From assembly GCA_030645535.1 (NCBI GenBank), contig JAUSNM010000076.1, positions 1 to 64,000 on the forward strand: a stretch of DNA of 64,000 nt, read 5' to 3'. This DNA is from Gallionella sp. (lineage in GTDB: Bacteria; Pseudomonadota; Gammaproteobacteria; Burkholderiales; Gallionellaceae). The translations under genes were made by a program, and so were the position numbers. Positions 23,004-35,282 of this stretch are shown piece after piece; the stretch's first letter is position 1, and each line of letters begins with the position of its first letter. The notes beneath the pieces were generated by a model that was not told the DNA's origin, ran no database searches, and saw nothing but the letters and a program-made list of their open reading frames with translations.

Positions 23004-23080
23004 TGCTGAAGCTACTCTCCCTGAAAGGGGAGGGCTTGAGCTGTTTCACTCTTGATGCCTGTTGAATAAAGGGAATGGTC

Positions 23081-24805
23081 ATGGATATGAATCGTCGCGA
23101 GTTTCTGCAATTGCTGGCTATGGCGTCGGCTGGCGGTTTTCTGCTCAATAACAGTGAAAGCTATGCGGCGGGTGATGCAGCGCGGATGTTTCAGCTGCCC
23201 TCGCACGGCAATGTCAGCCTGCTGCATATCACCGACAGCCATGCACAACTCAATCCGATCTACTACCGTGAGCCTGAGATCAATCTGGGCGTGGGTTCAA
23301 TGCACGGCCAGCCGCCGCACCTGGCAGGCCTCGCACTGCTCAAGCATTTCGGCATCAGGCCCGGCTCTCCCGAAGCATATGCTCTCACCAGCCTGAATTT
23401 TGTCGATGCCGCACGCACCTATGGAAAGGTTGGCGGATACGCGCATCTGGCAACGCTGGTCAAACAGATACGCGCCTCCCGTCCCGGTGCGCTGCTGCTG
23501 GACGGCGGGGACACCTGGCAGGGGACCGGACAGGCGATGTGGACCAAAGGTCAGGATATGATCGACGCAAGTCTGGAGCTGGGGGTGGATGTGATGACCA
23601 TGCACTGGGAATGTACCTACGGTGCAGAACGCATCAAGGAAGTCGAAGCCGGCGCATTGCAGGGGCGGATGGATGTGGTGGCGCAGAACGTCAAGACCAC
23701 CGATTTCGGTGATCAGGTATTCAAGCCCTACGTGATCAGGGAAATCAACACGATCCCGGTCGCGATCATCGGCCAGGCATTTCCCTACAGCACCATTGCC
23801 AATCCGCGCTACTTCGTGCCCGACTGGTCATACGGAATCCAGGAGGAAAATCTTCAGCTTGTCATCGATGAAGTGCGCAAAAAAGGAGCGCAGGTCGTGG
23901 TGCTGTTGTCGCATAACGGCATGGATGTCGATCTCAAGCTGGCCTCGCGCGTCACAGGTCTGGATGCCATCCTGGGCGGACATACGCATGATGGCATCCC
24001 GGTGCCCATCCCTGTGAAAAATCGTGCCGGCACGACGCTGGTGACCAATGCAGGTTCCAACGGCAAGTTCCTGGGTGTGCTGGACTTTGAGGTTAAAGCC
24101 GGCCGCGTGGTGAATTTCAACTACAAGCTGCTGCCGGTGTTCGCCAATTTGCTGGTGGCAGACAAGCGCATGACCGCGTTGATGGACAAACACCGTGCGC
24201 CGTATCAGGGAAAACTGTCCGAACAACTGGCTACCACCGACGGCCTGCTGTATCGTCGTGGCAATTTCAACGGCAGCTTCGACCAGTTAATTCTCGATGC
24301 GCTGATGAAGGAGAAAGATGCGCCGATTGCTTTCTCACCGGGTTTTCGTTGGGGAACCTCGTTGCTGCCGGGTTCCACCATCACGATGGAAGATTTGCTC
24401 AATCAGACGGCGATCACCTATCCCGCTACTACCCTTACCAATATGACAGGCGCGCAGATCAAGTCGGTGCTGGAAGATGTCGGCGACAACCTGTTCAACC
24501 CCGATCCTTACTATCAGCAGGGCGGCGATATGGTGCGCGTGGGCGGACTTGAATATACCTGCGAGCCGGCCGCCGCGATGGGCAGTCGCATTCAGGACAT
24601 GCGGCTGAACGGCAAGCTGCTGGATGCGGACAAGATTTACAAGGTGGCGGGCTGGGCACCGGTTTCAGAAGCCGCGCGGGATAAAGGGGGGGAGCCGATC
24701 TGGGATCTGGTCGCCCGCCATTTACGCAGCGAAAAAGTCGTCAAAGTGACTTCACCTAATCAGCCTAAGCTCAAGGGCGTGGCGGGCAATCCGGGGATGG
24801 TCTGA
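23081..24805 (+). CDS. soxB: SoxB, dimanganese sulfate thiol esterase
   Basis: About 574 residues. Tat-type start (MNRREFLQLLAMASAGGF), metallophosphatase metal-binding motifs LLHITDSHAQLNP, DGGDTWQGTG, SHNGMDVD and GGHTHDG, and a 5'-nucleotidase-like C-terminal domain. It hydrolyses sulfate from SoxY-bound thiosulfate in the periplasm. Start could be 23075, 23081 or 23087; AAAGGGA (23068-23074) best suits 23081. The last sox gene; no soxC or soxD follows, so the pathway is the truncated, sulfur-storing type. Confidence 0.95.
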   Translation: MDMNRREFLQLLAMASAGGFLLNNSESYAAGDAARMFQLPSHGNVSLLHITDSHAQLNPIYYREPEINLGVGSMHGQPPHLAGLALLKHFGIRPGSPEAYALTSLNFVDAARTYGKVGGYAHLATLVKQIRASRPGALLLDGGDTWQGTGQAMWTKGQDMIDASLELGVDVMTMHWECTYGAERIKEVEAGALQGRMDVVAQNVKTTDFGDQVFKPYVIREINTIPVAIIGQAFPYSTIANPRYFVPDWSYGIQEENLQLVIDEVRKKGAQVVVLLSHNGMDVDLKLASRVTGLDAILGGHTHDGIPVPIPVKNRAGTTLVTNAGSNGKFLGVLDFEVKAGRVVNFNYKLLPVFANLLVADKRMTALMDKHRAPYQGKLSEQLATTDGLLYRRGNFNGSFDQLILDALMKEKDAPIAFSPGFRWGTSLLPGSTITMEDLLNQTAITYPATTLTNMTGAQIKSVLEDVGDNLFNPDPYYQQGGDMVRVGGLEYTCEPAAAMGSRIQDMRLNGKLLDADKIYKVAGWAPVSEAARDKGGEPIWDLVARHLRSEKVVKVTSPNQPKLKGVAGNPGMV

Positions 24806-25025
24806 AATCAATAAACGATAAAACCGCTGTTGGTCCACGAAAGACACGAAATTCACTTAACAAATCAAAATGTTACTTTTGTATGGGTACTCAACGATTC
24901 GGTGGTGATCAAAAACTGCATATTGCCTTGAATATTGTGGTGTTTTTGCGAGCATCCGCTGTGTGGATTGCCTGCTTACCGCTTTTCGTGGATGAGATGA
25001 TTTTTTTGAATAAAAGGGCGTCAAC

Positions 25026-25532
25026 ATGAATAAACTACATATTATATTTACGCTGTTGTCCGCACTGGTCCTGACGTCGGCAGTGGCCGCTGAACCCGCA
25101 GATCCGCTCGGCTATACCGATGTGAAGCTGCAAATTGCACGAATACAGGTGCAGGATGGCGTCAGCTTCGACGATGCGGTGGAATCGCTCAAGTTGCGCG
25201 CCAATCAGCGCAATCTCAAGTTTGTCGGCGCCAACCTGATTTACAAGGAAATCGCGGCGCTGACCGGCAAGCCGGCAAAACGCATGGAAATATTCAATTT
25301 TTGCGACGGGCTGACTGCCGGCAAGATGCTGGCCGCTGATCCTCAGATGATCGCTTTCATGCCCTGTCGCATCGCGATCATTGAAGACGCGGAAGGGCGG
25401 CGCTGGGTTATTTCCATGATGATGGATATCAAAATGATTCATGCAATGCCCGCTGACACCCGCAAGAGTGCAGAAGGCGTGATGGCTGCGATGAAAGACA
25501 TGATGGTTGCGGCAAGCCGTGGCGATCTTTGA
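25026..25532 (+). CDS. Secreted DUF302-family protein
   Basis: 168 residues with a clear signal peptide (IIFTLLSALVLTSAVAAEP). The rest resembles DUF302 (VGANLIYKEIAAL, then MEIFNFCDGLTAGKM and FMPCRIAIIED). Cys93 and Cys114 could react with sulfur or form a disulfide. DUF302 function is unknown; members are common beside sulfur oxidation genes. It is followed at 24 bases by the secreted DsrE-like gene, which suggests a periplasmic pair. Confidence 0.8.
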   Translation: MNKLHIIFTLLSALVLTSAVAAEPADPLGYTDVKLQIARIQVQDGVSFDDAVESLKLRANQRNLKFVGANLIYKEIAALTGKPAKRMEIFNFCDGLTAGKMLAADPQMIAFMPCRIAIIEDAEGRRWVISMMMDIKMIHAMPADTRKSAEGVMAAMKDMMVAASRGDL

Positions 25533-25556
25533 AACACACACCAGGGACGTGACCTA

Positions 25557-26006
25557 ATGAAAAATACATTCAGCTTGAAAAATATTGCAGCCTGCCTGTT
25601 CCTTCTGTCTGTATTGTCATCAGTACAGGCTGCTGATACACACGAAAGCAAGGCAGTTGCCCCGCGCACCCGGGTGGTGTTCCAGATCAGCGATGACGAT
25701 GCCAAAAAATGGAATCTGATTCTCAATAACGTAAAAAATGTGCAACAGGAGCTGGGTGCCGGAAATGTTGACATTGAAGTCGTTGCATTTGGCCCCGGAA
25801 TTAATATGTTCAAGTTTGAATCTGTTGTCGCTGAGCATGTTGATGAAGCGCTCAATGCAGGGGTTTCAATCGTCGCCTGCCAAAACACCATGAAAGCGTT
25901 CAAGCTTGGCAAGGCGGACATGATGTCGACCATCGGCTATGTGCCCGCTGGTGTCGTTGAAATCATCAGAAAACAAAATGAGGGTTACGCCTATATTCGC
26001 CCTTAA
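25557..26006 (+). CDS. Secreted DsrE-family protein
   Basis: 149 residues: signal peptide (IAACLFLLSVLSSVQAADT), then a DsrE/DsrF-like domain (RVVFQISDDDAKKWNLILNN, VDIEVVAFGPGINMF). The acceptor-type Cys108 sits in SIVACQNTM, where DsrE-family proteins keep their reactive cysteine. Most DsrE proteins are cytosolic, so export is notable and suggests handling of sulfane sulfur in the periplasm near Sox. ORF ends 39 bases before the amidotransferase gene. Confidence 0.85.
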   Translation: MKNTFSLKNIAACLFLLSVLSSVQAADTHESKAVAPRTRVVFQISDDDAKKWNLILNNVKNVQQELGAGNVDIEVVAFGPGINMFKFESVVAEHVDEALNAGVSIVACQNTMKAFKLGKADMMSTIGYVPAGVVEIIRKQNEGYAYIRP

Positions 26007-26045
26007 CTGCCCAATTCTTTTGATTTAATTTGACATGGCCTGAAA

Positions 26046-26762
26046 ATGAAACCCATTGCCATTTTTTGCCATGCTGCCCACGAAGGCCCGGGTTATCTTG
26101 CGGAATTTTTTGATGCGCGCAATATTCCCTGGCAGATGATTGCAATTTACGCCGGGGCTGCCGTGCCGAGATCCGTTTCAGCCTATTCCGGGTTGGTGTT
26201 CATGGGCGGGCCGATGAGCGCTAATGACGATTTGCCGTGGATAGCCCGGGAGCTGGATTTGATTCGTGATGCAGTGTTACATGACATACCTCTGCTCGGT
26301 CATTGTTTTGGCGCTCAACTCATGTCCCGCGCGATGGGCGGGGTAGTATCGGGCAATCTGGTCAAGGAAATCGGCTGGGGTGAGGTGCAGGTTGCCGCCA
26401 ATGAATCCGCACGCTTCTGGTTCGGTAATGTGCAGGTTTTTCAGGCTTTCCACTGGCACGGTGAAACGTATACCTTGCCGCAGGGTGCGGTCCGCCTGCT
26501 GTCCAGTCGGGATTGTGCCAATCAGGGATACGCCATTGGTCGTCATCTTGCCTTGCAATGCCATATTGAAATGACCGCCGGAATGATCCAAACGTGGTGC
26601 GAAGCGGGCGCAGAAGAAATTTCTGCCAGCGAGGCCAGCCCGGCTGTGCAGTGCGCGCAAACCATACAACAGCAAACGGAAATCAAGCTGCCACAACTCA
26701 CCCGGGTTGCTGAACAGTTGTACGATACCTGGCTGCAGGGGGTTTGCAATCCGTCCTGCTAA
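26046..26762 (+). CDS. Class I glutamine amidotransferase-like protein
   Basis: 238 residues. The nucleophile elbow GHCFGAQ holds Cys87, and the His/Glu pair is in LQCHIE. It resembles GMP synthase-type GATase domains standing alone (YLAEFFDARNIPWQMIAIYA, FMGGPMSAND). Such lone proteins have varied roles, including glutamyl-peptide or thiol-related chemistry. The substrate is not predictable. Probably in one transcript with the two preceding secreted proteins; ends before a hairpin. Confidence 0.85.
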   Translation: MKPIAIFCHAAHEGPGYLAEFFDARNIPWQMIAIYAGAAVPRSVSAYSGLVFMGGPMSANDDLPWIARELDLIRDAVLHDIPLLGHCFGAQLMSRAMGGVVSGNLVKEIGWGEVQVAANESARFWFGNVQVFQAFHWHGETYTLPQGAVRLLSSRDCANQGYAIGRHLALQCHIEMTAGMIQTWCEAGAEEISASEASPAVQCAQTIQQQTEIKLPQLTRVAEQLYDTWLQGVCNPSC

Positions 26763-26822: not shown

Positions 26823-27149
26823 TCAGCCGGTACTCCAGGCTCTGGGGCGTTTCATGCCGGCGATTCTGCAAGCCTGGCCGACATAGCCATAGGGAAACAA
26901 TTCGAAAAGCCGGTTGCGCGCATCGCAGTCGCAATGTGCCGCCAGATGCTTGATTGCATGACGCGCATCGGCGATGATCCCGTGCTCCGCGTAATACTCC
27001 CGCATGAAGCGAATGACATCCCAATGTTCTTCTTCCAGCGTGATATCGGCTCGCTTTGCCAGTTCCTGCGCGATCGATTCGTTCCATTGTGCCGGGTCAA
27101 TCAGATAGCCTTCTTCATCGAGCAGGGTGTTCAATATATCCGCTTCCAT
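26823..27149 (-). CDS. DsrC-family protein lacking the terminal Cys (paralogue 1)
   Basis: 108 residues with the TusE/DsrC fold (EEGYLIDPAQWNESIAQELA, FMREYYAEHG). It ends GQACRIAGMKRPRAWSTG: the internal cysteine (Cys94, the CysB site) is kept, but the penultimate CysA is replaced (Trp105 at the aligned place). Start ATG at 27149 follows GGGAGAAG; a longer frame from 27383 adds unrelated residues. DsrC relatives without CysA (sometimes called RspA) cannot form the DsrC trisulfide and are thought to be regulators or sulfur-transfer partners. Confidence 0.83.
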   Translation of the reverse strand: MEADILNTLLDEEGYLIDPAQWNESIAQELAKRADITLEEEHWDVIRFMREYYAEHGIIADARHAIKHLAAHCDCDARNRLFELFPYGYVGQACRIAGMKRPRAWSTG

Positions 27150-27198
27150 GTTGCTTCTCCCGAATTGCAACTGTTTGAGGCGTGCCAGGTGAACTTTA

Positions 27199-28386
27199 TC
27201 AGACGATGAAATTTTTGGTGGTGTCATTGAGGCGGCGGGCCTCATCGACCATGCGCGCCGAATCGGCGATGCAAGCGTCAGTATAGTGCGCGACGCTATC
27301 GGTGTGAGTCTCGTTTTCTGCAATGCGGGATAGAACAATGCCGACCAGCATTTGCTGATCATCTGCCGCTTCCCGGACGGCATCCACCGTGCGTTTCATC
27401 GCAGAGGTGGCCTGTTCAATCTGTACGAAGGTTTCCGATGAATATTTAGACGCTTCCAGGCCGACACGGACAGCGTTGGCGTTTTCATCGGACAGCAGGA
27501 CGGTCGAGGCGACATCCATGTTGACACGCAGCAGCACAGTATCAATGCGCCGGGTTGCCTCTGCGGCTTGCTCGGATAGTTTTCTGACTTCGTCTGCCAC
27601 CACGGCGAATCCTCGCCCCTGTTCACCTGCGCGTGCGGCTTCGATGGCGGCATTCAGCGCGAGCAGGTTGGTCTGGTCGGCAATAGCCCGGATAACTGCA
27701 ATTGCAGACTCGACTTCTGCGGCGCTGATCTTCAGACTGGCGGCATTGGAAGAAATCTTTCCGCTGGCAGACTCAAGTGCCGAGATCGCCTGTTCCGTGG
27801 CATTGACGTGCAATACGCCGTTTTTCACCAGTTCGTCGGCAGATGCCGCGCTATTGCCGGCTTCTCCCGATAGCGAGAGTATCGTGTTTGCTTCTGTCGC
27901 CATACCGTGCACTACCTTGATGATCTCGCCGGAATTGCTGCGGTAATCGTTCATGTTGTTGCCCAGAGCAGTCATTGCGGCACCGATTTCTTTCGCAGTG
28001 GAATCAACGGTGTTCGCTGACTGGGCTATGTTGCGTATCGTTTCACGCAAGCTGGATGTCATGGCATCGAAGCCTTCGGTAATTTCACCAATCGTATCGT
28101 GACTGCGCACACCGCAACCTTCACGCAGATCACCCTGGCTGATGCGCGCCGATGCGATCGCGACCTGCCGCAGTTTGCGGACCAGTTGCCATTCGATGAG
28201 GTTGTAATTGACGATGCCGATTGTGATGCCTGCAACAAGGCAGCCAACGCAGAACCACAGCAACATGCCTTCTTTCCAGTCAACGAAGAAATTGGCATAG
28301 AACGGGAAAACGATTCCCATGGTCAACCCGAAACCCAAAAATGAATATTTGAGTCGCTTGAGTATAGAGCCTGCATTCTGTGGCAT
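27199..28386 (-). CDS. Methyl-accepting chemotaxis protein
   Basis: 395 residues. Two closely spaced TM helices (about 14-31 and 38-60) leave almost no periplasmic sensor, then HAMP (60-115) and a coiled-coil signalling domain with the hairpin [20 protein letters not shown]. It therefore probably senses something at the membrane or cytoplasm, such as energy state or redox. The pentapeptide tether for methylation enzymes is absent. It sits in the minus-strand accessory run, 93 bases after the dioxygenase gene, and may steer the cell towards sulfur sources (inference). Confidence 0.9.
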
Positions 28387-28479: not shown

Positions 28480-29355
28480 TCAGGTGGTCGTCAATCTGTC
28501 AAGGTAGCGTGCGCGATACAGCAAACGCGGTCGGATTGCGTCATCGGTAAAAGCGGCACGGTCATGCAGTACGTTATTGCATAGCAGCCCCATGCCGGGT
28601 TCAAGTTGCACCTGGTGGATATGGGGAGATGCCGAGGCCAACAATTGTTCCAGCGCTGCGACCGCCGCCCGTGTCGCATCGTCCTGTTTCCATTCGATGC
28701 TGCGGGTACGTGCGGTGTAACGCATGTGCAGTGCGCCGTTAGCCTGCCCGACACTAAACACCGGGCCTGTTTGTGCAGCACGTGCTACCCCGTTTTCGTC
28801 GTCACGCGCAGGGATGGTCATGGCATCGGGTGCAGAGAGCGCACGAATATAGTCAGGATTTGCATCGCGCAGCATCAGGTAGGCGATTTCGTGATCCATT
28901 ACACGGTTTTCGCCACCTCGCCCGGCATTCTGCGCACAATGCAGCACCATGGCGCGTATCTGTCTCTCAGGCGGGTTGTAGTAGCCATCGGTATGCCACC
29001 TGATGGCGCGATCCGTATAGGGGATGTAAGCCTGGCGTTGCCCGTCATTGTTGCATACGGTAATGCGCGTGATGCCCTGCTCGCCGGCCAGCCAGTTGGC
29101 ATCCAGCCGCACCAGACCCAGCTGTAAGCACAGGCGTTGCAAGCCCTGTTCGTCTATCCTGGTATTCGATGCATAGATGACCATATTGCTGCGACGGCAG
29201 CGCAACAGCAGCGCTTCTTTTTCGGCAGCCGTCAGTTGGCAGGGGTCGTTGATTTCGACTATCAGCTCATCAGGGCTGGTAATGGCACTGACCAGCTTGT
29301 GCCCTCTCCATCTCAGATAGGCGTCCTGACTATCCAAGTCGAAAGGGTTAGCCAT
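28480..29355 (-). CDS. TauD/TfdA-family Fe(II)/2-oxoglutarate dioxygenase
   Basis: 291 residues. The iron-binding HxD is RWHTDGYY (His121 and Asp123), the distal His is in NNVLHDRAAF, and the 2-oxoglutarate Arg is probably in RPRLLYRARYL. TauD relatives oxidise taurine, sulfonates and many other substrates. Substrate not predictable. It follows the next gene by one base, so co-translation is likely. Dioxygenases of this kind recur in dsr regions of sulfur oxidisers by my recollection; no role there is established. Confidence 0.85.
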   Translation of the reverse strand: MANPFDLDSQDAYLRWRGHKLVSAITSPDELIVEINDPCQLTAAEKEALLLRCRRSNMVIYASNTRIDEQGLQRLCLQLGLVRLDANWLAGEQGITRITVCNNDGQRQAYIPYTDRAIRWHTDGYYNPPERQIRAMVLHCAQNAGRGGENRVMDHEIAYLMLRDANPDYIRALSAPDAMTIPARDDENGVARAAQTGPVFSVGQANGALHMRYTARTRSIEWKQDDATRAAVAALEQLLASASPHIHQVQLEPGMGLLCNNVLHDRAAFTDDAIRPRLLYRARYLDRLTTT

Positions 29356-29356
29356 G

Positions 29357-29965
29357 TCAGATGTTCCTGGCAGGCGTGAGGCGGCGGCGAGGCGGGCGCG
29401 CTTTAGCAGGCTCGGTGACGAGCAAATTGCGGAAGTTTTTTTCCAGCATGTCCACCGCGTTGGGCGCTTCGATACTCATGATCTGATCGATAATCCAGTC
29501 GCTATCCTTTTCATCCATGATTTGACCCATGCAAAAGGCAAGATAACGGATGAAGGCAAACTCGGGGCCATGCTCATCGTAGCCAAACTCGGCATATTCG
29601 CCGGCGCGCAGATTAAGTGAGTCGATGAATTGCAACTTGCATTCAGCCAGCTCCGGGCCCATCAAGCGGCTCTTGTTTTCGGCGTAAGTGTTTGCGACAT
29701 GGTTCGCCAGCGCGCTGGTGAAGACAAAGCGATCTTCGGGGGAAAACTGCCGATAAGCCAGACGATCGGCAACCTGAATCAGGAACACCAGAAATTCCCC
29801 GAGAAAAGAAAAATATTGAGGGCCGATTGCGACCTCAAATTTGGCTTTGCGCGTGTTCTTCAGTGCATTTTCTGCGATCCGTGAAACGTTAAACGCGACT
29901 GCCCCGGCCTGTTCTGCCGGGGTGTGTTCACGCCCTGCTTTGTACCAGTTGCTTTTGATGCGCAT
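29357..29965 (-). CDS. Conserved hypothetical protein (202 aa)
   Basis: Soluble, largely alpha-helical by composition, with a basic C-terminal tail (KARPPRRRLTPARNI). No TM or signal segment and no cofactor motif. I do not recognise the family. Located between a DsrC-like gene (four bases away) and the TauD-like gene (one base away), so it is part of a tight five-gene operon and probably acts with them. Whether it binds nucleic acid through its tail is a guess. Confidence 0.8.
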   Translation of the reverse strand: MRIKSNWYKAGREHTPAEQAGAVAFNVSRIAENALKNTRKAKFEVAIGPQYFSFLGEFLVFLIQVADRLAYRQFSPEDRFVFTSALANHVANTYAENKSRLMGPELAECKLQFIDSLNLRAGEYAEFGYDEHGPEFAFIRYLAFCMGQIMDEKDSDWIIDQIMSIEAPNAVDMLEKNFRNLLVTEPAKARPPRRRLTPARNI

Positions 29966-29969
29966 ATGC

Positions 29970-30299
29970 TTAGTAGCCGCCCTTGCCCAGCGGTTGTGGC
30001 AAACCTGCGACTTTACAGGCTTGCTTGGAAGGCCCGATCGGGAACAGGTCGTACAGCGCCTTGCTATCCGCTTCAGGCCAGAATTCGTTGACGGCCTTTA
30101 ACATATTGCGAAAGTTGGGCGTATGTCCATGTTCACGATATTCTTCGCGCATGAAGTTGATGATTTCCCAGTGTTTAGGGGTCAGTTCGATGCCCTCTGC
30201 AGCGGCAATCACGTTGACTACTTCTTCGCTGTAATCCGCTTCCAGCAGATAACCGTCTGCATCTGTTTCGAGTTCGTTTCCTGCAACTGTGTATCCCAT
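29970..30299 (-). CDS. DsrC-family protein lacking the terminal Cys (paralogue 2)
   Basis: 109 residues, clearly DsrC-like (TDADGYLLEADYSEEVVNVI, EGIELTPKHWEIINFMREEY). The C terminus GPSKQACKVAGLPQPLGKGGY keeps the internal Cys95 (CysB), while Lys106 takes the place of the penultimate CysA. Comparison with true DsrC in this window shows high similarity in the final 20 residues apart from this change. It cannot form the usual CysA persulfide, so a regulatory or binding role is likely. Lies between the Cas6-like and hypothetical genes. Confidence 0.87.
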   Translation of the reverse strand: MGYTVAGNELETDADGYLLEADYSEEVVNVIAAAEGIELTPKHWEIINFMREEYREHGHTPNFRNMLKAVNEFWPEADSKALYDLFPIGPSKQACKVAGLPQPLGKGGY

Positions 30300-30335: not shown

Positions 30336-30938
30336 TCAGTCCAGATCGGTGATGACCTTGTAGGGTACAAAAATGCCGCAGCCATATCGGCGGTCGGCGC
30401 CCAAACCCGTGTATTGCAAACGCAGCGAATCATCCGGCTTGAGATCATGGATCACCAGACTGTAGCCATGAATCGGATGATCCGGTGTATGCATGACGCC
30501 ACGCATGCCGCATAGCAGTTTGCCCAGGATGCCAAGTTCGGTCAGGCGTGCAGCGACGTCTTGCAGAAATGCCACTTCATCCTCGATGCCAGTCACCAGG
30601 TGTGCGTGCAGCGTGGGATAAGGCTGAATCTTGCGCAATTTGCCGCAGCCCAGCTGTAGTGTGGCTCCCCCGATATCGAGAGCCTGACCTGACAGGCTGG
30701 CGAAATCGGCGGCGAGTGACGCATTCAGACGCAGTACCAGCTTGGAACGTTTAGGGAGCAGCATGCCAGCTTCGCTCTTGGCGGTGCGCAGCGGTATGAC
30801 GCCTGTCAAAGGGTCTTCTTCAAGCGCCGGGATATGGCGCACCAGTGAATGCCATAGCGCGACCTGATAACTGTCGGGGATGACATCGGCGCTGATGTCA
30901 TAAACCGCGTCTATCATCTCTGTAATGGAGTCAGTCAT
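30336..30938 (-). CDS. Cas6/Cmx6-like RAMP-fold protein without a CRISPR array
   Basis: 200 residues. The N-terminal half resembles the Cmx6 form of Cas6 (SYQVALWHSLVRHIPALEED, then GVIPLR; KRSKLVLRLNASL; LSGQALDIGG; LHAHLVTG). The C-terminal glycine-rich loop GLGADRRYGCGIFVPYK is typical of RAMP endoribonucleases. Cas6 cuts CRISPR precursor RNA, but no repeats or other cas genes are visible here. ATG at 30938 overlaps the upstream gene by 8 bases; longer starts lack support. It is co-encoded with a DsrC-like protein, so any RNA role in sulfur metabolism would be new. Similarity judged by eye. Confidence 0.7.
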   Translation of the reverse strand: MTDSITEMIDAVYDISADVIPDSYQVALWHSLVRHIPALEEDPLTGVIPLRTAKSEAGMLLPKRSKLVLRLNASLAADFASLSGQALDIGGATLQLGCGKLRKIQPYPTLHAHLVTGIEDEVAFLQDVAARLTELGILGKLLCGMRGVMHTPDHPIHGYSLVIHDLKPDDSLRLQYTGLGADRRYGCGIFVPYKVITDLD

Positions 30939-31155
30939 CGGAGGGCGCATCCTGTGTGTCAGCCCATTCAATCATGGCTTTCGCCCACAGCCGTGCGGTG
31001 TCAGGATCGATATCGAAAATAGTGAAGCGTTTGGCCTCGCGGATACGGATACGCATCAGACTCATTCCCCCTTCAACATGGTCAATTTGCTGCAATTCGA
31101 TCTCTTGATTGCCAAGAGGAACTTTAAATTTTGCTAATCCGTTAATCTGCGCCAT
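30931..31155 (-). CDS. Small conserved hypothetical protein (74 aa)
   Basis: MAQINGLAKFKVPLGNQEIE begins a compact, beta-rich sequence ending with acidic residues. No motif, signal or TM is visible. First gene of the minus-strand run that includes the Cas6-like and DsrC-like genes, overlapping the former by eight bases. Function unknown. Confidence 0.75.
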   Translation of the reverse strand: MAQINGLAKFKVPLGNQEIELQQIDHVEGGMSLMRIRIREAKRFTIFDIDPDTARLWAKAMIEWADTQDAPSDD

Positions 31156-31455
31156 GGTGATTTTACGATGAGCCTGTGATGTGTGACGAGAGTATATCCT
31201 CGATAGTCATGATTTCAAATGCTACTGCGGAACGGCTGATGCAACCCGTTAGGGTTATAAAAAATAGCCGCTACGGGTGATGGTTTGCGGTCTATATGCA
31301 TCGTATTATGCTCAAACATTTAGAAAATTGGCGCGCCGGATTATGGCAGAGTCAAATTTGATCAATTGTTTGAATCGCTGCTCCCAGCCTTTACCGGGTA
31401 TCAATAGTCAATTACCGGTTCAGTGCACTTGGTACGCTAACTGAAAGGAAAAATT
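31156..31455. promoter_or_regulatory. 300-bp divergent region upstream of dsrA
   Basis: No gene. It must hold the promoters of the dsr operon and of the minus-strand accessory operon. An inverted repeat AACCC-GTTA-GGGTT lies at 31243-31256. AAAGGAAAAATT precedes dsrA. No clear sigma70 boxes could be fixed by eye. Confidence 0.5.
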
Positions 31456-32751
31456 ATGGCAAAGAAGATGCATGACACTCCCAATCTCGATCAACTCGAG
31501 TCCGGCCCTTGGCCCAGTTTTGTGACAGGTCTTAAAGATCTGGCCAAGGATAAAGATTACGTTGTGGATCTGCTGGGGCAGTTGGAAACGTCATATGAAA
31601 CCAAAAAGGGCTACTGGAAGGGTGGTACGGTTGGCGTGTTTGGCTATGGCGGCGGTGTGATTCCACGCTTTACCGAGCTCAAAGATGAAAACGGTCAGCC
31701 AAAATTCAAGGATGCAGCTGAATTCCACACGCTGCGCATCATGCCTCCACCTGGTATGCACTACGATACCGATATTTTGCGCAAATTTTGTGACCTGTGG
31801 GAAAACCACGGTTCCGGCCTGATTGCTTTTCACGGGCAGTCCGGCGATATCATGTTCCAGGGCGCAACCACAGAAAACGTACAAAAAGCGTTTGATGAGA
31901 TTAACGAGCTCGGCTTTGATATGGGTGGCGCAGGTCCGGCAGTTCGCACCTCGATGTCTTGTGTGGGTGCTGCGCGTTGCGAGCAGTCCTGCTACGACGA
32001 AGCGAAGACGCATCGTGCGGTTTTGAATACGTTCCTGGATGACATTCATCGTCCATCGCTGCCCTACAAGTTTAAATTCAAGTTTTCCGGTTGCCCGAAC
32101 GACTGTATGAACTCTGTTCAGCGTGCTGACATGGCGGTGATCGGTACATGGCGCGACAACATGCGTACCGACGAAGCGCTGGCGAAGAAGTGGTTCGTCA
32201 AGCACGGTATGGATGAATTGGTGAATGACATCGTGGCACGTTGCCCGACCAAGACTTTCCAGGTCAAGGAAATCGGCAAGATCAAGGCTGGCGAACACAT
32301 CACCAGCGTCGCGGTCAGCGATACTCATGGTATCGAGATCAACAATCAGGACTGTGTGCGTTGTATGCATTGCATCAACGTGATGACGGGTGCTTTGGCG
32401 ACCGGTGTGGATAAGGGCGCGACGGTACTGGTGGGCGGCAAGAGCCACCTGAAGATCGGCGGATTGATGGGTACCGTGGTTATTCCGTTTATCAAGCTGG
32501 ATACTGACGAAGCGATCGAGAAGCTGGTTGATTTTGGTCAGCGCACCATCGACTTTTTTGCTGAAAATGCGTTGGAGCATGAGCGTACCGGTGAAATGAT
32601 CGAACGTATCGGTTTGACAAACTTCCTGGATGCGATGGAAATTGATGTCGATCCATCTATGGTCAGCTCGCCACGTATGAATCCATATGTCCGCACCGAC
32701 GGCTGGGATGAAGAAGTTGCCAAGATCAACGCTAAAAACAAAGCTGCCTGA
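31456..32751 (+). CDS. dsrA: DsrA, reverse dissimilatory sulfite reductase alpha subunit
   Basis: 431 residues. The sirohaem/[4Fe-4S] ligands are seen as a C-X5-C pair (SCVGAARCEQSC) and C-X3-C (SGCPNDC). A ferredoxin insert CVRCMHC follows. In sulfur oxidisers the enzyme runs in reverse, making sulfite from persulfidic sulfur delivered by DsrC. High-ranking match and operon context make the direction oxidative; the sequence alone suggests it through the DsrEFH and DsrL genes, markers of the oxidative type. First gene of dsrABEFHCMKLJOPN; 11 bases from dsrB. Confidence 0.96.
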   Translation: MAKKMHDTPNLDQLESGPWPSFVTGLKDLAKDKDYVVDLLGQLETSYETKKGYWKGGTVGVFGYGGGVIPRFTELKDENGQPKFKDAAEFHTLRIMPPPGMHYDTDILRKFCDLWENHGSGLIAFHGQSGDIMFQGATTENVQKAFDEINELGFDMGGAGPAVRTSMSCVGAARCEQSCYDEAKTHRAVLNTFLDDIHRPSLPYKFKFKFSGCPNDCMNSVQRADMAVIGTWRDNMRTDEALAKKWFVKHGMDELVNDIVARCPTKTFQVKEIGKIKAGEHITSVAVSDTHGIEINNQDCVRCMHCINVMTGALATGVDKGATVLVGGKSHLKIGGLMGTVVIPFIKLDTDEAIEKLVDFGQRTIDFFAENALEHERTGEMIERIGLTNFLDAMEIDVDPSMVSSPRMNPYVRTDGWDEEVAKINAKNKAA

Positions 32752-34946: not shown

Positions 34947-35282
34947 ATGTCGAGCATCGAAGTTGGCGGTAAGAGTTACGAAACAGATGAAGAGGGTTAC
35001 CTGATCGATTTGTCAGAGTGGAATCCGGAAGTTGGCAACTACCTGGCTCAGACTGAAAACGTTGAAATGACCGATCAGCACTGGGAAGTCATTAATTTTC
35101 TGCGTGAATATTTTGAGGAATATCAAATCGCGCCGGCAGTTCGTGTACTGACCAAGGCAATCGGCAAGAAACTCGGCGCTGACAAGGGCACCAGTGAATA
35201 CCTGTATGGCCTGTTTCCGTACGGTCCCGGCAAGCAAGCATGCAAGATCGCCGGACTGCCTAAGCCTACGGGTTGCGTTTAA
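34947..35282 (+). CDS. dsrC: DsrC, canonical sulfur carrier with both cysteines
   Basis: 111 residues ending in KQACKIAGLPKPTGCV. Both conserved cysteines are kept (Cys99 and penultimate Cys110, spaced 11 residues). DsrC carries sulfur as a persulfide to DsrAB and returns oxidised electrons via DsrMKJOP. It is the only full two-cysteine member in the window; three relatives have one cysteine each. AAGGAG precedes ATG 34947. Confidence 0.96.
   Translation: MSSIEVGGKSYETDEEGYLIDLSEWNPEVGNYLAQTENVEMTDQHWEVINFLREYFEEYQIAPAVRVLTKAIGKKLGADKGTSEYLYGLFPYGPGKQACKIAGLPKPTGCV

Follow-up and report, generated by a model that had tools for sequence, protein, structure and literature searches.

A Cas6-family protein that appears untied from CRISPR accompanies the dsr sulfur-oxidation genes of Gammaproteobacteria

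The window, that is the whole 64-kb stretch of DNA analysed here, carries on its minus strand a gene (30336–30938, ATG at 30936–30938) for a 200-aa Cas6-like protein matching TIGR02807 and PF09559. As the initial annotation had noticed, a small gene overlaps it and a DsrC paralogue follows it. The former (30931–31155, minus strand) encodes a 74-aa DUF6967 protein (PF22295) and shares 8 nt with the Cas6-like gene; the latter (29970–30299, minus strand) encodes a DsrC-family protein of 109 aa, hereafter DsrC2, without penultimate cysteine and with a C-terminal KGGY. Downstream on the same strand lie p202 (29357–29965), a 202-aa protein without Pfam, NCBIfam or PHROG match that is clustered likewise in relatives, and a TauD/TfdA-family protein resembling Fe(II)/2-oxoglutarate dioxygenases (28480–29355), often clustered likewise in relatives, whose best NCBIfam models are small-molecule dioxygenases with scores far under cut-off. 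On the other side, an intergenic region (31156–31455) separates the module from dsrA (31456–32751, plus strand), which stands head-to-head with it; a stretch of this region (~31244–31326) is similar in L003, L005, L007 and L011, all of them loci of the window's own family. Since the module genes are on the minus strand and dsrA is on the plus strand, they form a cluster of their own that faces the dsr operon, and the earlier placement of the Cas6-like gene inside a sulfur operon has to be abandoned. The canonical DsrC is encoded at 34947–35282 (plus strand) and possesses both C-terminal cysteines (...KQACK...PTGCV), in contrast to DsrC2.

Two further observations concern the surroundings of the module. 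A third DsrC-family protein (26823–27383, minus strand; PF04358 over residues 87–181 of the longest open reading frame) is encoded downstream of a methyl-accepting chemotaxis-type gene and ends in ...GQACRIAGMKRPRAWSTG; one cysteine lies close to this end but does not occupy the penultimate position. The plus-strand region 23075–26759 encodes a phosphoesterase/5'-nucleotidase-type protein, which we take to be SoxB-like, a DsrE-family protein and a GATase-like protein.

The Cas6-like protein matched the NCBIfam model TIGR02807 (cas6_cmx6) with 132.6 bits against a cut-off of 98.85 and the Pfam model PF09559 (Cas6) with 175.9 bits against a cut-off of 26.7, scores far beyond what chance would explain for a sequence match, and it was also recognised by the PADLOC Cas6 models. 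Its sole credible relative by sequence in the PDB is 8fcj_B, the Cas6 of a type I-B CAST Cascade (E 1.1e-12 with the single sequence and 6.2e-33 with a profile). An AlphaFold2 model built from 36 sequences reached a pLDDT of 80.1 and a pTM of 0.70, the C-terminal loop being at low confidence. When submitted to Foldseek, it matched 8fcu_B, Cas6 of the type I-B CAST Cascade, with a TM-score of 0.79 (E 3.6e-15) and 3pkm, a Cas6 with bound RNA, with a TM-score of 0.58. A double ferredoxin-like RAMP fold is thus predicted. The gene had been read as RAMP-type from the outset, with profile search and structure prediction suggested as checks; both return the Cas6/RAMP family, so that this reading withstands comparison at the level of the fold.

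Residue conservation was evaluated on 130 distinct sulfur-clade sequences, the 135 aligned ones containing duplicates across locus sets (L017=L071, L019=L100, L027=L046, L030=L036 and L072=L074 by sequence); L035, L039 and L040, whose Cas6-like sequence was unusable, were left out of the 138 loci. The window protein keeps the glycine-rich loop (GLGADRRYGCGIF, residues 178–190), a characteristic feature through which RAMPs contact RNA. The loop glycines are found in 128 (G178), 129 (G180), 130 (G186) and 130 (G188) of the sequences, and Arg183, in the same loop, in 126. The column of the canonical histidine (LH motif), presumably the position of P. furiosus His46, is occupied by Glu40 in the window protein. 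No histidine occurs there in any of the 130 distinct sequences (0/135 aligned), whereas five of six comparators, all of them Cas6 genes of cyanobacterial plasmids, possess it, as do four of the five comparators that have cas neighbours. The search for the catalytic histidine that the initial annotation had proposed therefore ended with a canonical column devoid of histidine in the sulfur clade. Loss of this residue does not prove inactivity, since Sulfolobus Cas6-1, according to passages of PMC4041471, lacks the canonical histidine and cleaves anyway, with Lys28 marked as an active-site residue.

Other positions distinguish the sulfur clade. Lys194 is invariant (130/130), His193 is found in 120 and Trp38 in 118 of the 130 sequences, and none of these residues is present in any of the six comparators. 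A basic residue is found at position 64 in 130/130 sequences and at position 102 in 128/130. His24 is kept in 83 and His48 in 84 of the 130; both are kept in all 29 Cas6-like sequences from outside the window's order, and neither is present in 42 of the 130 relatives or in the window protein itself (Tyr24, Ile48). The positive charge of the protein is reduced. In the aligned core, where the gap is smaller than on full-length proteins, the median net charge per 100 aa is 0.0 (−4.0 to +3.1) in the sulfur clade versus +2.7 (1.0 to 6.6) in the comparators, and the median pI is 6.84 (5.09–9.63) versus 9.35 (8.53–9.79). A pI above 9 was calculated for 9 of the 130 sulfur-clade cores, and the pI of the whole window protein is 5.70. 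This reduction weakens the case for RNA binding by the Cas6-like protein.

Some individual loci deserve mention. One in-frame stop interrupts the Cas6-like stretch of L039 (Sulfuricella sp. T08), G103, G537, G632 and G646, and these stretches are either pseudogenes or contain a sequence error. The comparator from the Gloeobacter morelensis plasmid pGMOR1 (L145) has no cas neighbours in the stretch viewed; this Cas6/Cmx6 gene is surrounded by hypothetical genes, a PAPS-reductase-family gene and a cupin gene, and visible CRISPR is absent there too.

The distribution of the gene was compared with that of dsrA in three genome samples that are spread across taxa but not independent, so that Fisher p values computed on them ignore phylogeny. 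In the sample of the window's order (300 genomes), the Cas6-like protein was found in 58 genomes and dsrA in 64, namely 61 over the curated cut-off and 3 with strong fragments. All 58 carriers have dsrA (55 over the cut-off and 3, G161, G261 and G014, with fragments); six dsrA genomes (G083, G122, G132, G145, G217 and G277) are without the Cas6-like gene, and none of the 236 genomes counted as dsrA-negative carries it. It is absent too from G115 and G251, of the same genus, which have no dsrA over the cut-off. In the class sample (369 genomes), searched for the Cas6-like family with alignment A1 and for dsrA at E ≤ 1e-30 instead of the curated cut-off, 118 and 119 genomes were retrieved respectively: 111 with both genes, 7 with the Cas6-like gene only, 8 with dsrA only and 243 with neither. 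The seven carriers without dsrA include two that are 99–100% complete (G614 and G425), and genomes of 1.0–1.1 Mb are found among the carriers of the class. In the phylum sample (299 genomes, dsrA again at E ≤ 1e-30), dsrA was found in 52 genomes and the Cas6-like gene in four, all of the window's order; it was not found in the 48 dsrA genomes of this sample from outside that order. The association between the two genes in the sampled order and class is close to one-to-one.

When named genomes were searched with a single peptide pattern, 421 places were confirmed; the best 80 of these, which were kept, include places in Sulfuricella, Sulfurimicrobium, Sulfuriferula and Thiobacillus. A mirror-tree comparison of Cas6-like and dsrA identities, performed on 33 loci (alternate usable loci of L032–L111), gave a Spearman coefficient of 0.60, which is consistent with co-inheritance although it is inflated by shared phylogeny. 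Spread by viruses was considered and rejected, relatives being absent from viral contigs in pattern-based scans that used the window protein, a CRISPR-linked Cas6 from a cyanobacterium and alignment A1. No PHROG match was obtained for the Cas6-like protein, DUF6967 or p202.

The arrangement seen in the window recurs in relatives. Synteny with dsr, which the initial annotation had wished to see examined across sulfur oxidisers, was found in all 58 carriers of the order, where the Cas6-like gene and dsrA stand head-to-head no more than 10 kb apart. Among the dsrA-positive carriers of the class (n=110, G000 left out), the same arrangement within 10 kb was found in 81; in the other 29, the two genes are on different contigs (27) or more than 10 kb apart (2), and no other orientation to dsrA within 10 kb was found in any of the 110. 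The distance is 43 kb in G407, a 1.45-Mb genome, and 518 kb in G621. In 18 longer class stretches that had been chosen before the dsrA result, 17 were head-to-head, the exception being L163 of G407, near which no further module gene was recognised.

The partners of the Cas6-like gene were counted in three locus sets that have a few genomes in common (L003–L031, L032–L111 and L113–L141), per locus and with duplicates included. Downstream of the Cas6-like gene, at a distance of 1.5 kb or less, 29/29, 76/80 and 27/29 loci respectively have a gene of the DsrC family. DUF6967 precedes the Cas6-like gene in 27/29, 72/80 and 1/29 loci, and p202 is found within 3 kb after it in 26/29, 77/80 and 1/29, the stretches of the last set being short. 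Of the 80 loci of L032–L111, some of them truncated where a contig stops, 57 have a TauD-like gene downstream; in L113–L141 this gene is upstream in 23 of the 29 loci. In gamma loci, a conserved protein of 105–106 aa is also encoded near the module (L155:8084–8404, minus strand; L157:12384–12701, plus strand; L161:9004–9324, minus strand), and the L157 copy has no Pfam match. The word "orphan" used for the gene in the initial annotation says too little, since the gene sits in a module conserved with dsrA across order and class.

The search for CRISPR partners covered the window, its assembly and the carriers of the order. In agreement with the first reading, a direct-repeat search of the 64-kb window (repeats of at least 20 nt, copies at most 120 nt apart) found no CRISPR array and gave two 2-copy families at 80% identity. 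The window's assembly (2.68 Mb in 116 contigs, 86.6% complete) contains a single PF09559 match, the Cas6-like protein itself; neither Cas1 nor PF10040 was found in it, and the five Cas3-core matches are all far under the cut-off (best 39.2 versus 102.45 bits). Because of the 86.6% completeness, absence of these families is no proof for the genome. A CRISPR-Cas locus elsewhere that lacks its own Cas6, which would have spoken against a fold taken over for another task, was not found in this 86.6%-complete genome with the families searched. In the order, Cas1 is present in 17 of the 58 carriers and absent from 41. With 41 carriers devoid of Cas1 and the canonical histidine absent from all 130 sequences, it is unlikely that the Cas6-like gene still works in CRISPR.

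DsrC2 of the window and that of one gamma locus match PF04358 and TIGR03342 above cut-off. Against the TusE model PRK11508, window DsrC2 scores 96.4, under the cut-off of 191. Tails were compared on 124 distinct DsrC2 sequences (129 with duplicates). The penultimate cysteine is missing from all of them, the tail reads KGGY in 122, and 17 contain a cysteine somewhere in the last 20 residues. Cysteine-poor homologues of DsrC have been named RspA and guessed to be regulatory. DsrC2 lacks the pair of C-terminal cysteines by which DsrC is recognised (Cys100 and Cys111 in A. vinosum). Passages of PMC3397948 describe the penultimate cysteine of A. vinosum DsrC as strictly conserved and required for binding DsrEFH; DsrC2 therefore should neither carry sulfur at this position nor bind DsrEFH in that way. 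We infer that it may imitate DsrC towards a different partner, or serve as a sensor. PMC3397948 also assigns TusE, a relative of DsrC, a function in tRNA thiolation, and PMC5944118 reports binding of A. vinosum DsrC to DNA that lies upstream of the dsr cluster. As to gene positions, a DsrC-like gene of Thiodictyon (THSYN_22565) is numbered close to the dsr cluster in a passage of PMC5944118, and four further DsrC-family genes of A. vinosum are numbered far from dsrA in one of PMC3368242.

The DUF6967 model (pLDDT 90.2) has a predicted beta4-alpha fold. In a Foldseek search, PUR repeats made up 12 of the 14 top matches and 19 among the 50 matches listed, the best E value being 0.059, which is not significant, and the rest worse; one of the PUR repeats matched was solved with DNA. 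Pfam matches of 42 DUF6967 members at E up to 1 did not include the PUR family. Arg35, Arg37, Arg39 and Arg43 are invariant in these 42 sequences. In the loci from outside the order (L113–L141), a different gene of 60–70 aa was found in 26 of 29. Homology of its product (A6) with DUF6967 (A5) is not supported by hhalign, which gave a probability of 2.9%.

In the hunt for an RNA target, dsrA leaders of several clades were aligned. The dsrA leader of the window folds as its shuffles do (z −0.57), with no unusual structure, and no Rfam match at the gathering threshold was found in the window. In Thiobacillus-type leaders (31 loci, e.g. L085:9395–9669, minus strand), about 210 nt are strongly conserved, with a mean column identity of 73% and hairpin-like stretches; RNAalifold detected little covariation (−0.81 kcal/mol), and the only Rfam match in the L085 region, SNORD12 at E 2.2, was dismissed as chance. 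This conserved region is a possible regulatory leader. A palindrome, ACCC-N4-GGGT with a variable spacer, was spotted by eye, without statistics, upstream of dsrA in several clades (window ~31244–31326, L006–L016, L032–L042); it is a candidate hairpin and could equally be a DNA operator. As the Thiobacillus leader has little covariation, its Rfam match is due to chance and the window leader is unremarkable, we do not claim an RNA target.

Among the major branches of the sulfur cycle is sulfur oxidation through reverse Dsr, whose genes have long been studied. We consider it nearly certain that a Cas6-family protein, with a predicted Cas6 fold and untied from CRISPR, goes with these genes in the Gammaproteobacteria in the GTDB sense, beta included, its gene standing head-to-head with dsrA and usually beside those of a small partner, DsrC2, p202 and often a TauD-like oxygenase. 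In this respect the first proposal, a Cas6-type fold taken over outside CRISPR, is strengthened by the fold, by the co-occurrence with dsrA and by the weak link to CRISPR, and its tie to dsr likewise. RNA processing, the task suggested for it, is not supported: the canonical histidine is missing from 130/130 sequences, which does not amount to proof of inactivity. The protein is probably an exapted, non-cutting Cas6 fold in a dsr-dedicated module, and regulation at the RNA level by this module is plausible. Put as one statement, a Cas6-family protein untied from CRISPR together with a dsr-dedicated regulatory mechanism falls just short of an even proposition; the mechanism by itself, post-transcriptional regulation of dsr by the module, is put forward tentatively and leans slightly to the doubtful side.

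Such a mechanism could work as follows. The Cas6-like protein, which would cut no RNA, and the overlapping DUF6967, a possible PUR-like binder, would form a nucleic-acid-binding unit controlling dsr expression after transcription. DsrC2 would imitate DsrC while being inert towards sulfur: it would dock on DsrAB or DsrMKJOP, both partners of DsrC, and not on DsrEFH, and once docked it might report how busy the sulfur relay is. Nucleic-acid binding is favoured because the glycine-rich loop is kept, Arg183 is found in 126/130 sequences, DUF6967 has invariant arginines and its model is PUR-like. Regulation is favoured because of the divergent position and of the binding of A. vinosum DsrC upstream of dsr described in PMC5944118. 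Several observations count against the scheme: the reduced positive charge, the RNA target sought without success in the window and in the Thiobacillus leaders, the non-significant PUR resemblance, the dependence of DsrEFH binding on the cysteine that DsrC2 lacks, the dsrA genomes without the Cas6-like gene (48 outside the order in the phylum sample, 6 in the order, 8 in the class), the seven class carriers without dsrA, the distant copies in G407 and G621, Cas1 in 17/58 carriers, the in-frame stops and the A. vinosum DsrC-family genes numbered away from dsrA. In its full form, the scheme unites a catalytically dead Cas6, a very small PUR-like protein and a DsrC decoy without the cysteine in a ribonucleoprotein switch that would sense sulfur flux and set dsr expression; this version is speculative and rather unlikely to be right in every part. 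If true, it would mean that a disarmed CRISPR RNA-processing protein has been captured as a dedicated part of a core energy pathway, in sulfur oxidisers of both the beta and the gamma lineage, some of whose genomes measure about 1 Mb.

The Cas6 fold may instead have been kept purely as a protein scaffold which, with DsrC2 and the small partner, would help to assemble or gate DsrAB or DsrMKJOP without binding RNA; the cysteine-less arm of DsrC2 would then plug a DsrC docking site or act there as a placeholder. This explanation, doubtful when taken by itself, stays a close rival because positive charge is reduced throughout the sulfur clade and no RNA target was found in the window or in the Thiobacillus leaders. 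It would also fit the residues found in none of the six comparators (Trp38 in 118/130, His193 in 120/130, Lys194 in 130/130) and the KGGY tail (122/124) of DsrC2. It sits less well with the retained glycine-rich loop, the weak resemblance of the overlapping small gene's product to nucleic-acid binders and the location of the cluster in a separate divergent unit, outside the direction of dsrAB transcription.

That the protein is instead an active ribonuclease, cleaving a specific RNA such as dsr mRNA or a small RNA through residues other than the canonical histidine, appears improbable. Passages of PMC4041471 on Sulfolobus Cas6-1 make cleavage of this kind conceivable, and His24 (83/130) and His48 (84/130), both present in 29/29 sequences from outside the order, could be enlisted for it; however, 42/130 relatives and the window protein have neither, positive charge is reduced and the window leader is without unusual structure. 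Less probable still is an RNA-modification factor, in which the Cas6 fold would present tRNA or another RNA to the TauD-like oxygenase and DsrC2 would stem from a TusE-like relay. The TauD-like gene downstream (57/80, L032–L111) or upstream (23/29, L113–L141) and the part of TusE in tRNA thiolation given in passages of PMC3397948 speak for it, but the penultimate cysteine is present in 0/124 DsrC2 sequences, the TauD-like protein is closest, far under cut-off, to models of small-molecule dioxygenases, and a tRNA role would not predict such dependence on dsr. An ordinary CRISPR Cas6 working in trans on a distant array and placed here by chance can practically be dismissed: the equivalog status of TIGR02807 for Cas6/Cmx6 and Cas1 in 17/58 carriers are outweighed by the 41/58 carriers without Cas1, an own genome without Cas1 or any Cas3-core match over cut-off, the near one-to-one dependence on dsrA, the fixed head-to-head position and the absence of the canonical histidine in 130/130.

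Found with dsrA in nearly every sampled gammaproteobacterial dsr genome, the Cas6-like gene is a candidate for a missing piece of the pathway, and its product would be a Cas6 that moved from immunity to metabolism. TIGR02807 being an equivalog model, the sulfur proteins get named CRISPR-associated, and surveys in which cas6 counts as evidence of CRISPR would go astray in sulfur bacteria. A link between Cas6 and dsr was not found in the open-access papers searched; passages from papers that name both mention them apart.

Compared with known systems, DsrC2 passes the cut-offs of the DsrC/TusE families (PF04358, TIGR03342) and differs from them by its KGGY tail and the lack of the penultimate cysteine. 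The DUF6967 model shares the beta4-alpha arrangement of PUR-repeat proteins (PUR-alpha), with matches at E ≥ 0.059 and sequence-profile support absent. A Cas6 with a non-CRISPR RNA task is on record in Sulfolobus, where Cas6-3 acts on ncRNA60 according to passages of PMC4041471; that enzyme belongs to a CRISPR-rich genome and cuts repeat-like RNA, whereas here the families searched revealed no CRISPR in the genome, and the canonical histidine has been lost. The closest likeness is to Cas6/Cmx6 of type I-MYXAN and type I-B CAST (TIGR02807, PF09559; 8fcj/8fcu chain B), with which the sulfur protein shares the profile match, a whole-length alignment, the predicted fold (TM 0.79) and the glycine-rich loop. 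It departs from them in having no cas neighbours, no canonical histidine and a reduced positive charge, and in its fixed Lys194, common Trp38 and tie to dsrA. It belongs to a known fold, is seemingly misnamed by a CRISPR model, and has a role that looks new.
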